Assembly (NCBI GenBank): GCA_017415715.1
Contig: JAFQFD010000044.1
Span: forward strand, 1-49,926
Direction of reading: 5' to 3'
Origin: Bacteroidales bacterium
Lineage (GTDB): Bacteria; Bacteroidota; Bacteroidia; Bacteroidales; UBA932
DNA length: 49,926 nt
In this document: positions 1 to 5,095 of the stretch, piece by piece
How positions within the stretch are numbered: position 1 is the stretch's first letter
Layout of the letters: each line of letters starts with the position of its first letter
Translations under genes and position numbers: made by a program
The notes under the pieces: generated by a model
The model's database searches: none
What the model was told of the DNA's origin: nothing
Seen by the model: only the letters and a program-made list of their open reading frames with translations

Positions 1-72
1 AAGAAATAGTCCAGACTACAACGGCTTAGCATTACGGATGAAGCCGGCTTGTGTAAAAGCAAGAGTAGCAAG
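1..72 (+). ncRNA. 3' part of a group I intron (5' part outside window)
   Basis: The first bases read AAGAAATAGTCC, which resembles group I element S (J8/7 plus the 3' strand of P7, classically AAGAUAUAGUCC). Two hairpins follow: CGGCTT/AAGCCG (about 22-46) and CTTG/CAAG (48-63), placed like P9 domains. The segment ends in G72, the expected omega-G, directly before the tRNA 3' exon. The layout parallels the cyanobacterial tRNA-Leu(UAA) intron, where a similar S element, short P9 stems and a terminal G precede the exon sequence AAAATCC. P1-P7 would lie left of the window, so the catalytic core cannot be checked here. Group I identity is inferred from layout and short motifs. Confidence 0.72.
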
Positions 73-123
73 AAAATCCCGTGGACAGAAATGTCCGTAC
101 GGGTTCGATTCCCGTCCGGAGCA
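73..123 (+). tRNA. tRNA-Leu(UAA), 3' exon
   Basis: The exon starts AAAATCCCG, which supplies anticodon bases A35 and A36, loop bases 37-38 and the 3' side of the anticodon stem, so the intron interrupts the anticodon loop after U34. A long variable arm GGAC-agaaat-GTCC (83-96) marks a class II tRNA. The T arm is ACGGG-TTCGATT-CCCGT (99-115), the 3' acceptor strand is CCGGAGC (116-122) and A123 is the discriminator. CCA is not encoded. The 5' exon must lie upstream of the window and should begin GCTCCGG. Leu(UAA) is inferred from the A35-A36 positions, the class II shape and the classical intron site; Ser is less likely. Confidence 0.8.
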
Positions 124-127
124 CATC

Positions 128-162
128 AATCCCTCTTGGAAGTAATTCTGAGAGGGATTTTT
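128..162 (+). terminator. intrinsic terminator after tRNA-Leu
   Basis: AATCCCTCT (128-136) pairs perfectly with AGAGGGATT (151-159), and a T run follows to 162. It sits 4 nt after the tRNA 3' end. Confidence 0.85.
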
Positions 163-194
163 GCATATAGACATACTTTGGCACAAGTTGTAAT

Positions 195-202
195 TATCTT
201 TG
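195..202 (+). promoter_or_regulatory. Bacteroidota -7 element upstream of the HNH gene
   Basis: TATCTTTG matches TAnnTTTG exactly. A TTTG lies at 177-180, but the gap of 14 nt is shorter than the usual 19-21. Transcription would begin near 209, which excludes the TTG at 200 as a start and favours ATG 218 with a very short leader. Confidence 0.55.
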
Positions 203-217
203 CACGAAAGCTACATC

Positions 218-691
218 ATGATAAGACACCGGACCAAAGAAGAATTTGAGAACGCAGCCAAACAAGCATTCAGCATTGCCGGAATGTGTAGGAATCTGGG
301 GCTCAAGCCATGCGGAGGCAATTATAAACTCATGCATAATGCCATTGAACAGCATGGGATCGACACATCTCATTTTAGAGGGAAAGGGTGGAATGTAGGT
401 TTATCCTTCCAACCCACTTGTGCAAAACCAATCGAAGAGATTCTCGTCAAAGACTCTTCCTACCAATCATATAAACTAAAAAACAGACTCCTAAAAGAAG
501 GACTGAAAGAGCATCGATGTGAATGCTGCGGATTGGAAAAATGGTTTGACTCCAGCATTCCATTGGAGCTTCATCATATCAATGGAGACAACAAAGACAA
601 CCGGTTAGATAATCTCCAGCTTCTCTGCCCTAATTGTCATGCACTTACTGATTCTTATCGAGGAAAGAACAATAAGTCAGGAAAAGGATGA
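218..691 (+). CDS. HNH endonuclease with N-terminal HTH-like region
   Basis: A 157-residue protein. Residues 8-52 form a helical, HTH-like DNA-recognition segment, an architecture common in phage and intron-associated HNH enzymes. Residues 101-141 hold the nuclease: zinc-binding pairs C101/C104 and C137/C140, the catalytic HH pair at 119-120, the LDNLQLLCPNCH block and H141. All key residues are present, so the enzyme should be active. ATG 218 is chosen because a promoter -7 element overlaps the upstream TTG. The gene lies about 95 nt after the intron-bearing tRNA-Leu and its terminator, in AT-rich DNA. A homing role for the intron is possible but not shown; a stand-alone phage-derived HNH is the alternative. 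Confidence 0.85.
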   Translation: MIRHRTKEEFENAAKQAFSIAGMCRNLGLKPCGGNYKLMHNAIEQHGIDTSHFRGKGWNVGLSFQPTCAKPIEEILVKDSSYQSYKLKNRLLKEGLKEHRCECCGLEKWFDSSIPLELHHINGDNKDNRLDNLQLLCPNCHALTDSYRGKNNKSGKG

Positions 692-1071
692 CAACGTCAT
701 AAGATGTCATTAGTATATCATTCGATGCAATACCCCTGTGAGTGTTGTCCGTTTATAAAAACTTTTTCTTAAATTTGTGGGGTCACGCGGTTTTTGCCGT
801 CTGACATTACATATTGTGAAAGTGTTTTTCGCAAATCCTTTCTTGAAAATGTGGTAGTTTTCTTGATTAGAAGGATGGCACGGAACAACACTACACTTTC
901 GTGTAGATACTTGAGGATAGGTGCATTCTGCGCCTTGATACCCCATATCTACTCGAGTGTGGGGTATTGTGTCGTTTATTTCTAATCGGGTCTTACCACA
1001 ACCTTCAAGAAGATAAACGAAAGTCAGCTCCACACTTTCTTTGTATAATACCTATTTCATCTTGGGGTTGG
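692..1071 (+). other. non-coding, hairpin-rich gap
   Basis: No convincing gene is seen on either strand. Two clean hairpins are present: CTACAC-tttc-GTGTAG (891-906) and ATACCCCA (938-945) with TGGGGTAT (960-967), the latter enclosing the palindrome ACTCGAGT (951-958). The sequence could be a relic of a mobile element end or an RNA leader for the coupled genes that follow. No insertion-sequence terminal repeat was recognised. Confidence 0.5.
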
Positions 1072-1347
1072 ATGGAACCAAATCGCTTTATGTTCAAGAT
1101 AGAGAATTTGATGTTTCATTGTTACAACAACGGTGCAACGGAGTTCTATTCTGCTATATTGCGGGATAATAATGAAAGCAAGGATGTAAGGCTGTATCAT
1201 AACGGAAACATCTTCTATGCTCATGAGCCGAGTACTGACTTAATATATCATGTGGATTTTGATTCAAATATCCAATCTCTCAAGGATCTCAAGGATGGAG
1301 ATGATGTTCAGATTATTATGACGATTCCCCCTGCGACAAAACTATGA
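1072..1347 (+). CDS. small hypothetical protein, first gene of a coupled trio
   Basis: A 91-residue protein of unknown family, mixed alpha/beta in composition, with no signal peptide or membrane segment. ATG 1072 is preferred over an upstream start at 967, because the extra 35 residues are cysteine- and tryptophan-rich and fall in the hairpin-rich gap. The stop overlaps the next start as ATGA (1344-1347), so translation is coupled to the PutAbiC-like membrane protein. This suggests a partner, for example a cytosolic sensor or regulator, but no motif supports a specific function. Confidence 0.55.
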   Translation: MEPNRFMFKIENLMFHCYNNGATEFYSAILRDNNESKDVRLYHNGNIFYAHEPSTDLIYHVDFDSNIQSLKDLKDGDDVQIIMTIPPATKL

Positions 1348-2033
1348 AATTTATAAATGATAAGGCTGTAATGATTATAGGTCTCATTGCAACATTAGTG
1401 ACTCCAGTATTATTGACCCGTAATTCATGCTGTGAAATCTTTGACTTTACCGAAACAGGTCAGATCGGAGACACGATAGGAGGAATCACAGCTCCTATTG
1501 TTGGACTCGTTAGCATAATCCTATTGTATATAACACTTAAAGAGCAGCGAGGCTTTAACGCACAACAAGTAATTGACAATAGAGTAAACCATCTGCTTGC
1601 AATTCAAAATGATCTGAATGCACTAAACGATATAACGACTTATAAATACAGGTTAGATGATCGTGATACTTTGGGGAAAGGCCTCGTTGATCTTGAGAAA
1701 TTAACTCATACTAATTCCAGCTTAATATTTGACTACCTTGAATTAAATGGTCTTTTCAGATCGTGTGTGTTAGCAAGGGTCATGTGTGGACAAATGAAAG
1801 AATTTTCTACCAATCTAGATGAATCTACAAAGACTTCTTTTAAGTTGTTTGCTTTCTGCTATCTTAACTCAATCCACAAATTCCTGAACGCTTTAGATAG
1901 AGCAAATGTTACTGGAAATATGATGGATTCATATAAAGACAAAGAATTTGATTCAGAAATCGATAACCTATTGAATGAAATCGCCCAAGAGATCAAAATT
2001 ATAGAACAAGAACTAAAATACTATAAATCATGA
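1344..2033 (+). CDS. PutAbiC-like membrane protein (putative phage abortive infection family)
   Basis: A 229-residue protein with two N-terminal membrane helices (about 8-25 and 48-68). The second is preceded by TGQIGDTIGGITAPIVGL and followed by TLKEQRGFN, the signature layout of the family annotated as putative phage abortive infection protein (PutAbiC). The rest is a soluble helical domain ending in a charged coiled-coil-like tail. Stop and start overlap by ATGA with both neighbours. Family membership is by recognition of the N-terminal signature; a defence role is only inferred from the family name. It could equally be an envelope-sensing accessory of the downstream surface lipoprotein. 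Confidence 0.65.
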   Translation: MKFINDKAVMIIGLIATLVTPVLLTRNSCCEIFDFTETGQIGDTIGGITAPIVGLVSIILLYITLKEQRGFNAQQVIDNRVNHLLAIQNDLNALNDITTYKYRLDDRDTLGKGLVDLEKLTHTNSSLIFDYLELNGLFRSCVLARVMCGQMKEFSTNLDESTKTSFKLFAFCYLNSIHKFLNALDRANVTGNMMDSYKDKEFDSEIDNLLNEIAQEIKIIEQELKYYKS

Positions 2034-3751
2034 AAAGAACCTTATTATTTGCACTCTCACTACTAGCAATAGTGGCCTGCAGCAAGTTTGATGACTCGGA
2101 AATCTGGTCAGAACTCAAAGAACATGAAGATCGTATTGTGAAGTTAGAAACACTCTGCAATCAGATGAACACGAACATCACATCTCTTCAGACTATCATC
2201 ATCGCCTTGCAAAACAATGATTACGTAACCAATATCTCTCCTATCAAAGAAGGAAGCAAAGAAATTGGTTATACTATAACCTTTGCAAAAAGCGGTTCTA
2301 TCACAATCTACCATGGCAAAGATGGAGAGAACGGAAAGGATGGCCAGAATGGTACAAATGGAACTGACGGAAAAGATGGACAGGATGGTAAGGATGGAAA
2401 AGACGGATACACTCCAAAGATAGGAGTAAAACAACATACTGATGGCCAATACTATTGGACATTGGATGGTAATTGGCTACTTGACGATAACGGCAATATG
2501 ATTCCAACTACAGGAGAAGATGGAAAAGACGGCACAAACGGTACTGATGGTACAGATGGTAAGGACGGTGTCGACGGCAAAGATGGTCAGGATGGAATTA
2601 CCCCACAGTTGAAGATTGAAGATGGATATTGGTACCTATCATACGACAATGGCGCAACATGGCAGAAACTCGGAAAGGCGACTGGAAACAATGGTCTTGA
2701 TGGGGCCAATGGTGCCGATGGAGAAGATGGAGATAGTATTATTGATTCAATCACTCAGGATGAAGAGAATGTTTATTTCAATTTGAGTGATGGATCTCTC
2801 ATAACACTACCTAAAAGAAATGTTGATACAATCGTGTTTGAAGATCTAAATGTTAAGGCCATATGTTGTAAGAATTGGGATACCAATCACGATGGAGAGT
2901 TGTCATATTCTGAGGCAGCTGCAGTGTCGAGCATAGATGGTGTATTTTCGAATAGTTCGAGTGAGGGCAACCCCAATATAATAGCATTTAATGAATTAAA
3001 ATATTTTACAGGCATAACAACGATTCCTGCATATGCTTTTTATAAATGTTCAAACTTGTGGAAAATCACACTCCCTGATACAATATCGTCAATCGGCCAA
3101 TATGCTTTCTGGCAATGTTCAGGTTTGTGCTATATAACATTCCCAGGTAATGTAACTACTATTGGGAATAGAGCATTTTCAGGATGTGAAAGCATAACTG
3201 AAGTTATAATTCCCGACACAATTATCCAAATTGATGATTTTGCATTTCAAAGTTGCTCCAATCTTGAATATGTATATATCGGCAAAGGAGTTAATGATTT
3301 TTCGGGATATTTGTTCTCTGGGTGTCCGGGTGAATTAGTGTATTATTCTATCATTCCCGATGGAACTTCAACTTCTAATGGACGTCATACGGGAGTATTT
3401 CATAATACAGATTTCACAAAGGTTACACTTGGTGGAAATGCTATAAAAATTGGCTCGTACGCATTCGGAGACTCGAGCACGGACAATACTTCAAACAGTA
3501 AAATTGTTACATTGATTTTAGAGGAATCAGTAAAAATAATAGGTTCATATGCTGTAAATACAAATTCATTAGATTATGTGTATTGTAAGTCCACAACTCC
3601 TCCGACTGGCACTACAAATATGTTTTATACCGGATTGACAAAGATATATGTTCCGATTGGCACAGGAAATACATACAAAACTGCATCAGGATGGGAAAAA
3701 TATGCCTCAAAGATTGAAGAGTACGACTTTAAAAATAATCCTATAGAGTAA
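2030..3751 (+). CDS. collagen-like, BspA-type LRR surface lipoprotein
   Basis: A 573-residue lipoprotein with lipobox cysteine C17. Residues about 20-95 resemble the DUF4988 / PL29 N-terminal coiled region found before Gly-X-Y tracts. Three collagen-like stretches of GKDG/GTDG/GQDG triplets follow (about 96-126, 163-188 and 217-233), separated by small aromatic-rich modules. An EF-hand-like loop DTNHDGELSYSEA comes next. The C-terminal third is BspA-type leucine-rich repeats (IPAYAFYKCSNLWKITLP and relatives). A secretion signal and Gly-X-Y rods point to a cell-surface adhesin. The start overlaps the preceding stop (ATGA), unusual for a surface lipoprotein. Confidence 0.8.
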   Translation: MKRTLLFALSLLAIVACSKFDDSEIWSELKEHEDRIVKLETLCNQMNTNITSLQTIIIALQNNDYVTNISPIKEGSKEIGYTITFAKSGSITIYHGKDGENGKDGQNGTNGTDGKDGQDGKDGKDGYTPKIGVKQHTDGQYYWTLDGNWLLDDNGNMIPTTGEDGKDGTNGTDGTDGKDGVDGKDGQDGITPQLKIEDGYWYLSYDNGATWQKLGKATGNNGLDGANGADGEDGDSIIDSITQDEENVYFNLSDGSLITLPKRNVDTIVFEDLNVKAICCKNWDTNHDGELSYSEAAAVSSIDGVFSNSSSEGNPNIIAFNELKYFTGITTIPAYAFYKCSNLWKITLPDTISSIGQYAFWQCSGLCYITFPGNVTTIGNRAFSGCESITEVIIPDTIIQIDDFAFQSCSNLEYVYIGKGVNDFSGYLFSGCPGELVYYSIIPDGTSTSNGRHTGVFHNTDFTKVTLGGNAIKIGSYAFGDSSTDNTSNSKIVTLILEESVKIIGSYAVNTNSLDYVYCKSTTPPTGTTNMFYTGLTKIYVPIGTGNTYKTASGWEKYASKIEEYDFKNNPIE

Positions 3752-4051
3752 TGAAAGTTAAACATTAACTGAATTACCTAAATCAAAATTTCAGTTGGTT
3801 GATTTGTGCTTATTTCGGAGTCTGGTTTACAGATTAATGCGAAGATACTTATAGTTCCTTAGCTTTATATAAATCTGCAACAGGTTAGAATATTATTCTT
3901 CACAAATCGTTGAGCAATAGAGCAAATACGATATAACCTTCCCTCAATAGGTAAGCAGATGTAGGATAAACACAATGTGTATCCGGAATTTACTTTATAC
4001 TTAAATTTTGTTATGAAAAAAAACGGGTTTAACACAACTGAGAAGCCTGTT

Positions 4052-4214: not shown

Positions 4215-4291
4215 CTTCCACCACTCTCCTGCCACCGGCGCTGCGGCATAATATTCTCATGGGAGCGGGAGGATATTAATGTTAGTGTGTT

Positions 4292-5095
4292 ATGTGGTAC
4301 CTTTTGATTCTGCTGGCGGTTTCTCTTGCCGTTTCAGCTTTGGGATGGATTTACTTCATCTATTTCTTCAGCATCGGTTACGGATTCGGAATTTCTGCGC
4401 TGGCGGTGGCCGTGGCGCTGATTTTCGGCAGTTCTCTCACTCTCCCGACTGCATTGATGTGCGGTGTGCTCTTCATTTTCGGATGCAGGCTCGGGCTCTA
4501 TCTTCTGACACGCGAGAAGCGGTCGGATGACTACAAGAAGATTCTCTACGGGCCGGACGCGGCGAAGAAGAAGCCGCTCGGCGTGGTCATCGTCGTGTGG
4601 ATCTTCTGCGCTCTGCTTTATGTGGGCCAGATCAGTCCCCTGGCTTTCTATCTCGGGAATTCTGCCGGAGGTGCTGATGTCCACGAAGGATGGATATGGG
4701 CCGGAACGGCGATTGCTGCGTGCGGCGTGGCGCTGGAGGCCTGGTCGGATGCCGTCAAGGCAAGGGCGAAGAAGAAGGCCCCGAAGAGGTTCGTTACCTG
4801 TGGCCCATACAGACTGGTCCGTTGTCCTAACTATCTGGGCGAGATCATCATATGGACAGGATCGTTCCTGATCTGCTTCGGAGCCAGCTGCACCGTATGG
4901 CAATGGTTAATTGCCGCCATAGGATACATAGGAATCATCTATGTGATGTTCAGCGGTGCACGAAGGCTCGAACTGCGTCAGACGCAGACATACGGCAAAG
5001 ACCCCGAATTCCAGGCATACACCCGCACCACCCCGCTCCTGCTGCCGTTCGTTCCGATATATTCCCTCGCAAAGCACAAATGGCTGCAGGCTTAG
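4292..5095 (+). CDS. DUF1295-family integral membrane protein (steroid reductase-like fold)
   Basis: A 267-residue protein with about six or seven hydrophobic helices. The C-terminal half carries the family signature: FVTCGPYRLVRCPNYLGEI (about 166-184), then GARRLELRQTQTYGKDPEFQAYTRTTP, the NAD(P)H-dependent steroid 5-alpha-reductase / isoprenylcysteine-methyltransferase-like C-terminal motif. Members of this group reduce or methylate lipophilic substrates; the substrate here cannot be told. ATG 4292 is the in-frame start; an upstream ATG at 4279 is out of frame. Confidence 0.8.
   Translation: MWYLLILLAVSLAVSALGWIYFIYFFSIGYGFGISALAVAVALIFGSSLTLPTALMCGVLFIFGCRLGLYLLTREKRSDDYKKILYGPDAAKKKPLGVVIVVWIFCALLYVGQISPLAFYLGNSAGGADVHEGWIWAGTAIAACGVALEAWSDAVKARAKKKAPKRFVTCGPYRLVRCPNYLGEIIIWTGSFLICFGASCTVWQWLIAAIGYIGIIYVMFSGARRLELRQTQTYGKDPEFQAYTRTTPLLLPFVPIYSLAKHKWLQA

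Follow-up and report, generated by a model that had tools for sequence, protein, structure and literature searches.

The locus raises the question of what interrupts the gene at the very start of the window, and whether the interrupting element could move together with the gene that follows it. The window is the entire contig C41 (49,926 nucleotides) of G000, the genome of a gut bacterium, and its first base already lies inside an intron. From positions 1-123, the first-pass annotation had proposed a group I intron in the tRNA-Leu(UAA) gene of a Bacteroidales genome; the host is indeed a member of this order. It left unmentioned the HNH endonuclease gene at 218-691, which proved to be part of the same problem.

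Reconstruction of the interrupted tRNA gene

Contig C14 of the same genome holds the missing part of the gene. The final 137 bases of the C14 reverse complement equal window positions 1-137 exactly, a pattern that adjacent contigs in a de Bruijn assembly would be expected to produce. Upstream of this overlap, C14 has the 5' exon, with the acceptor strand GCTCTGG and ending in CGGGACTT, the final T of which is U34, followed by the first 208 nt of the intron (C14 138-345, minus strand), which is 280 nt long in all. The 3' part of the intron, truncated by the contig start and recognized from sequence and covariation, occupies positions 1..72 of the plus strand and ends in the terminal (omega) G at position 72. 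The 3' splice site, 72/73, was placed by comparison with G026, an intronless sister genome. The 3' exon (73..123, plus strand) runs from A35 to the discriminator A123 and contains the long variable arm, the T arm, and the acceptor strand. The insertion lies between U34 and A35, the same position at which the tRNA-Leu(UAA) intron of cyanobacteria sits.

The identity of the gene and the classical anticodon-loop position had both been proposed from the 3' end only, with the advice to look upstream for an exon ending in U34 and with a missing 5' exon or P1-P7 core named as grounds for giving up the claim; exon and core are both on C14, and the acceptor strand foreseen, GCTCCGG, came within one letter of the actual one. 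ARAGORN did not call the split tRNA-Leu gene on the window. Nearly all of positions 1-123 was matched at 92-100% in 5 of the 101 genomes searched (G000, G039, G056, G021, and G052).

Comparison with G026 supplied an empty allele of the gene. Its tRNA-Leu(taa), called by ARAGORN, is intronless and, across the 85 bases compared, identical to the exons of G000 once spliced, which confirms both the contig junction and the exon boundaries. A misjoin of C14 and C41, or an intron brought into the bin by a phage or another organism, might be suspected because both contigs end at the intron, a shared repeat, in a draft genome that is 86% complete. However, the intronless tRNA of G026 has counterparts of genes from both contigs on its two sides, in unchanged order and, near the tRNA, mostly at ~90-100% amino acid identity, and the same intron lies within longer contigs of G039, G056, and G021; we regard such an artifact as extremely improbable.

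The HNH gene, too, has no relative that we could find in G026, where ~230 nt separate the tRNA from the next gene. Compared with G026, the G000 locus has extra DNA at window positions 125-4033 and, on the other side of the gene, ~200 bases before the tRNA that have diverged; beyond these differences the aligned DNA is ~90-96% identical. The segment without counterpart (125..4033, plus strand) has the HNH gene as its first gene, followed by open reading frames at 1344-2033 and 2030-3751. The protein encoded at 2030-3751 combines DUF4988, collagen-like, and BspA-type leucine-rich repeat regions. Intron and HNH gene are both missing from G026 alongside 3.3 kb of further differing DNA, and because the extra DNA in 125-4033 exceeds the HNH gene, the difference between the 2 genomes may not be a single homing event.

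Structure of the intron

We aligned 13 introns of the window subtype from the P1 3' strand to the 3' exon, including 5 from the genus, 2 from other Bacteroidales MAGs, 3 from Prevotellaceae MAGs, 1 from a 120-kb viral contig, and those of the phages Lak-C1 and Lak-B1. The structure drawn for them has 47 pairs in P2, P3, P4, P5, P6, P6a, P7, P8, P9, P9a, and P9b. Across the 13 introns and 47 pairs, 96.9% of cells were paired, a fraction that leans towards the drawn structure because the structure was drawn on these same sequences. Changes on both sides were identified at 21 of the 47 predicted pairs; the cells with such changes numbered 80, compared with a shuffled mean of 25.4, and none of 500 shuffles reached as high a value. 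Sliding the partner columns by 1-3 destroyed the covariation signal. On one of the five measures, further pair types, the alignment was not above the shuffles (36 versus 38.4).

P3 covaried at 4 of its 5 pairs, three P9a pairs had changes on both sides, and P8 and P6 were mostly paired; P7 and P9 never varied in the 13 introns and are therefore uninformative for or against the fold. In the window subtype, P4 has only two clear pairs, unlike in the genus's other intron subtype, and no P10 could be made out by eye. ACUU of the 5' exon pairs with GAGU to form P1, with a U.G at the splice site, and closes a variable hairpin that folded in 6 of the 6 ORF-less introns tested. Within the window, the P7 3' strand TAGTC, or element S, is at 7..11 (plus strand), its partner GACTA being on C14, and the P9 domain spans 16..68 (plus strand), with P9 at 16-19/65-68, P9a at 22-27/41-46, and P9b at 48-51/60-63. 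The element-S-like start, the P9-type stems, and the terminal G on which the original proposal had been built are thus real features, and the full 280-nt intron, with covariation among its relatives, backs a group I fold: a pseudoknotted P3/P7 core with P4-P6 and P8, the P1 U.G pair, and a terminal G. By eye, the other subtypes resemble group IC3, and the window subtype diverges from it in P4-P6. The window intron is of the same type as the tRNA-Leu(UAA) intron of cyanobacteria, with a divergent P4-P6.

The stock Rfam model (RF00028, Intron_gpI), which had been suggested as a check, gave no intron match on the window and none at E 0.1 on C14 or on the same-subtype loci L002, L004, and L005. 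Of six loci with the genus's other subtype, five (L022, L016, L013, L020, and L012, but not L015) passed the Rfam gathering score. The miss is a limit of one profile and not a defining structural feature.

Judging from its sequence, the intron most likely self-splices. An element that no longer splices, with the tRNA made by other means, could be read into the P10 that was not evident by eye and the two clear pairs of P4, but the paired fraction and the strong covariation speak against it. So does the role of the gene, the sole tRNA for UUA codons found in G000: the other leucine tRNAs have the anticodons CAA, UAG, GAG, and CAG, and no second tRNA-Leu(UAA) was found among the 38 tRNA matches of this genome, which at its level of completeness could miss one. 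We therefore consider loss of splicing very improbable.

Distribution of the intron in bacteria

Since the stock Rfam model gave no match, we built a model, R1, from the 3' half of the intron and the 3' exon. Because R1 includes the tRNA exon, intronless tRNA-Leu genes also score with it, mostly at ~30-45 bits; thresholds of at least 128 bits in the genus and at least 74 bits in the order were applied, and matches were partly read individually. In the genus, 55 of 151 genomes scored at the intron level; in the order, 3 of 393 genomes (G000, G395, and G405) reached 74 bits. In the phylum, 27 of 395 genomes, G000 included, passed E 1e-12, spread over 17 of 171 genera, with some of these introns possibly in other tRNAs. 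Outside the genus, the intron is sporadic in the order and phylum. The first-pass annotation had known of no well-described case in this phylum: we likewise found no description of tRNA-Leu introns of Bacteroidales in the open-access literature searched (most subscription journals lie outside it), although these counts show that the window is not a unique case.

Two matches were set aside. The G405 match (L349) was rejected as a tRNA-Leu intron, the tRNA reading as Ile(UAU); it appears to be a group I intron in a tRNA-Ile(UAU) gene, likewise inserted after U34. A 74.7-bit match in G037, outside the 55, is a broken remnant, a tRNA-Leu gene with intron pieces (L389, G037:C6:27400-29400), in a genome that has other matches at the tRNA-Leu level.

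A motif scan of named genomes (at least 118 stretches) identified introns of this kind with tRNA-Leu-like exons in Chitinophagaceae, Saprospiraceae, Cytophagales, and Prevotellaceae and, among the matches listed, also in Alphaproteobacteria, Acidobacteriota, Planctomycetes, and a cyanobacterium (Myxacorys). The intron itself is a further member of an already known intron type.

The HNH endonuclease gene and its bacterial relatives

The free-standing HNH gene (218..691, plus strand; 157 amino acids) starts 94 nt past the end of the tRNA. Two features precede it, both recognized by eye: a terminator-like hairpin with a T run 3' of the tRNA (129..162, plus strand), which was absent from the pattern-scan output, and a promoter-like box, TATCTTTG (195..202, plus strand), resembling the Bacteroidetes -7 box, which we take to be TAnnTTTG. 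The protein matched Pfam HNH above the cut-off and phrog_10822 over residues 4-155 (E 7.9e-46). C101, C104, H120, N132, C137, C140, and H141 are invariant in 35 HNH sequences and comprise the zinc-ribbon cysteines and catalytic residues of an HNH domain. A sequence search of the PDB gave weak matches only, the best being McrA-like, and no relatives were found in plasmids.

HNH relatives were identified in 14 of the 61 genus genomes searched, and all 14 were at tRNA-Leu(UAA), whole or broken. The gene is downstream of the tRNA in G000 and G039; in the other genomes it separates the 5' exon from the intron core, with an intact open reading frame inside the intron in G052, G040, G045, G011, G057, and G005. 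The contigs of G004, G010, and G015 stop short of the 3' exon, so that only the 5' exon and the HNH gene are visible there. A looser repeat search of 18 HNH-less genus genomes gave no match. HNH relatives also lie inside the same intron in Prevotellaceae, and at the motif-scan loci the family occurs inside the intron near P1 or P6 (positions assigned from distances), just upstream, or downstream. Downstream genes at ~34-96 nt were identified, among the matches listed, in G039, four Chitinophagia/Bacteroidetes contigs, and nine viral contigs, and a fifth bacterial case, also among the matches listed, lies 276 nt from the tRNA. The place of the HNH gene relative to the intron is labile.

Among the matches listed, 99 of 113 distinct bacterial intron loci had no same-strand HNH gene nearby, so that for the majority of these introns there is no visible sign of mobility; one of the 99, L172, has an HNH gene on the opposite strand. 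Several genus loci fall outside this tally through the pattern and the duplicate filter, and the genus counts above come from separate genome searches. A short remnant of an HNH C-terminus was observed inside a tRNA-Leu intron of Planctomycetia, close before P7 (L143, ~4252-4302).

We compared the HNH genes to see how they have changed at these sites. For the window HNH and its kin, dS was saturated and no dN/dS was computable; three HNH pairs without the window HNH gave dN/dS of 0.07-0.11, with dS already at 2.3-3.8. The saturation means that the pair is old at the site or that the HNH gene evolves fast, and recent movement within the genus is unsupported. In the HNH tree, the closest partner of the window HNH is the intronic one of G052 (98/92), and the clade around this pair also includes the G039 HNH and three intronic HNHs of Prevotellaceae. 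Taken at face value, this would suggest that the HNH gene moved out of the intron, the reverse of the classical proposal. Two separate exits, in the window and in G039, would be one reading of this grouping, but a constrained tree with both HNHs together was not rejected (p-AU 0.365). A larger HNH tree, made with a quick method and having many open forks, requires no fewer than 19 changes of state, of which only a part is imposed by starred branches. This tree covers part of the 73 viral loci described below, with at least one locus present twice (L269 is the L442 contig), three rows without a label, two long rows omitted, and one row too short.

HNH relatives in viral contigs

Viral contigs were scanned by HNH alignment alone. 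At least 582 of 600 stretches encoded a relative, and the best 80, the nearest relatives of the window HNH, were kept, giving 73 distinct loci; weaker matches were present in 103 phage records. Compared by name, 18 of the best 80 contigs are also in the intron-motif set, so the two samples overlap. A tRNA with the anticodon UAA was identified within 340 nt at 68 of the 73 distinct loci (best 80 of at least 582). It was not found nearby for L392, L415, L428 (at a contig end), L441, and L454; L392 had been a candidate and was rejected on the reading of its 3' exon, its HNH being 957 nt from another tRNA.

Mobile genes of the HNH kind are widespread, and the window gene could in principle be a chance neighbor of the tRNA. 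With a UAA tRNA near 68 of 73 viral HNH genes picked by HNH similarity alone, and with all 14 HNH-bearing genomes of the genus having theirs at tRNA-Leu(UAA), this is very unlikely, to the point that we give it almost no weight.

The tRNA was intron-bearing at 38 of the 68 loci and intronless at 30. In the former group, the HNH gene was 56-78 nt downstream at 15 loci, inside or upstream at 16, and with the tRNA on the opposite strand at 7; in the latter, it was 13-107 nt downstream at 23, upstream at 5, and opposite at 2. At eight viral loci (L223, L224, L245, L277, L287, L295, L332, and L336), the HNH relative immediately precedes a tRNA-Leu with an intron and has the family order swapped, with the catalytic part first and the N-terminal part second. 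The long variable arm was missing in 22 of the 68 tRNAs (10 of the 38 with and 12 of the 30 without an intron, the latter 73-78 nt long), so some may not be ordinary tRNA-Leu, leucine being read from the anticodon. Short tRNAs of this kind (73-78 nt) beside an HNH gene were observed at L411, L422, L426, L427, L434, L435, L448, L450, L458, and others.

Nearly identical HNH proteins are encoded beside an intron-bearing tRNA-Leu at L442 and an intronless short tRNA(UAA) at L448, and as these tRNA bodies are quite different, the anticodon arm is the remaining shared part. An HNH family that occurs at different tRNA bodies with one anticodon, either alone or in an intron of the anticodon loop, would most simply recognize the anticodon arm.

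We analyzed this arm at loci with a free-standing downstream HNH gene. U39-C40 was kept in 13 of 14 intron-bearing and 10 of 23 intronless tRNAs (Fisher p 0.0043 in a post hoc test), and a fifteenth intron case, outside that test, likewise has UC; alone, the contrast is not proof of self-protection, because the intron P1 needs these bases and R1 favors them. A changed anticodon stem was frequent in intronless viral UAA tRNAs with a free-standing HNH gene (L400, L407, L422, L448, L457, L458, and others). It is possible that such changes protect the carrier from self-cutting.

These loci also bear on whether the intron moves at all. It could instead be old, vertically inherited, and immobile, with the downstream HNH a selfish free-standing gene that targets the tRNA or its flank and does not move the intron. 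HNH relatives beside intronless UAA tRNAs at 30 of the 73 viral loci agree with this, as do the many bacterial introns without a same-strand HNH gene (99 of 113 among the matches listed) and the comparison of G000 with G039, in which the intron core is 95% alike and the HNH proteins 62-63%. Yet the same HNH family lies inside the intron in close relatives, the close sister G026 is without both intron and HNH gene, and the intron has a patchy distribution across the genus (55 of 151 genomes). On balance we consider an immobile intron unlikely, while giving it clearly more weight than the other alternatives, and favor a mobile pair.

Introns in Lak phages

The window intron also has relatives in megaphages. 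Lak-B and Lak-C phages match window positions 4-112 or 4-117 at ~80%, and the tRNA-Leu(UAA) genes of Lak-C1 and Lak-B1 bear an intron of the window subtype. In Lak-A phages, the exon was matched alone, and the tRNA-Leu(UAA) of Lak-A1 is intronless. In the intron tree, a branch with support of 100/99 parts the introns of Lak, the viral contig, and Prevotellaceae from the seven others. Prevotella is the reported host of Lak phages (PMC6784885), and the tree suggests that introns may have been exchanged between phages and Bacteroidales. Passages of that report call the tRNA introns of Lak phages enigmatic and place one in each baboon phage, in tRNA-Tyr; unlike here, they make no mention of tRNA-Leu or of group I (PMC6784885). 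With the window subtype, one tRNA intron of the Lak-B and Lak-C megaphages can be explained as a group I intron.

An apparent second insertion of ~300 nt was observed in the D loop of the same tRNA-Leu(UAA) in Lak-C1 (L042, ~2400-2706) and Lak-B1 (L043). It ends in G and has a P7-like GACTA/TAGTC, and its 5' segment GTGTTTGCC is complementary by eye to the joined exons GGU/AGACAC. It had no Rfam match at E 0.1, and the strict pattern for it matched no viral contig. A group I intron in the D loop of a tRNA would be unusual.

A candidate collaborative homing pair

In collaborative homing, an ORF-less intron is mobilized with an adjacent free-standing endonuclease, as described for T7-like phages, a cyanophage, and ICP1 (PMC3984707, PMC10448857). 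The window locus resembles these systems in having an ORF-less intron and, beside the interrupted gene, a separate endonuclease gene whose family is otherwise found inside such introns. It differs in being on a bacterial chromosome and in a tRNA gene, in the several arrangements of one HNH family, and in that cleavage at the insertion site is putative here. We think it likely that the ORF-less, probably self-splicing intron in the only tRNA-Leu(UAA) found in G000 and the UAA-tRNA-linked HNH gene form a collaborative homing pair. Under this reading, P1 (ACUU/GAGU) would place its U.G at the 5' splice site, P3 and P7 would make up the core, and the terminal G would define the 3' site. The HNH protein would cut an intronless tRNA-Leu(UAA) at the anticodon arm or close to it. 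Repair with the intron-bearing chromosome as template would then carry the intron into the empty gene, together with the HNH gene by way of the flanking tract. The 30 viral HNH genes beside an intronless tRNA(UAA) count against it, as such a tRNA should be cuttable unless its site has changed, and 10 of the 23 downstream cases keep U39-C40.

The cyanobacterial and plastid trnL intron of group IC3 (PMC4476775) shares with the window intron the gene, the ORF-less form, the S element, and the terminal G. Unlike it, the window subtype has another P4-P6, a two-hairpin P9, relatives that carry an HNH gene next to P1, and a sequence that the stock Rfam model misses. Bonocora and Shub reportedly described in 2001 an endonuclease of the Synechocystis tRNA-fMet intron, which concerns a different tRNA. 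The PHROG description of phrog_10822 has no tRNA link, and we found no description of a link between this HNH family and UAA tRNAs in the open-access literature searched, to which most subscription journals do not belong. An HNH linked to UAA tRNAs, combined with an intron in several arrangements, would be a variation on known collaborative homing.

More tentatively, and with slightly less than even confidence in the whole, the UAA anticodon arm may be a homing platform shared by bacteria and phages, on which the HNH family repeatedly alternates between free-standing forms and forms within a group I intron at the cut site. Intronless carriers would survive by changes in the anticodon stem, introns would be exchanged between Bacteroidales and their phages, Lak among them, and the window would represent a chromosomal two-gene stage.

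Such introns can escape both an ARAGORN search and the stock Rfam model. Their interest lies in how group I introns and endonucleases unite, for which many stages stand side by side within a single HNH family and a single type of gene: HNH genes with an uninterrupted tRNA, HNH genes with an intron-bearing tRNA, HNH genes inside the intron at two places, and broken remnants. Because these stages occur side by side, the order of events can be tested by tree and by cleavage assay. The locus of this gut bacterium, whose HNH has kin at UAA-anticodon tRNAs in both bacteria and phages, suggests a two-part mobile element in several stages of assembly.
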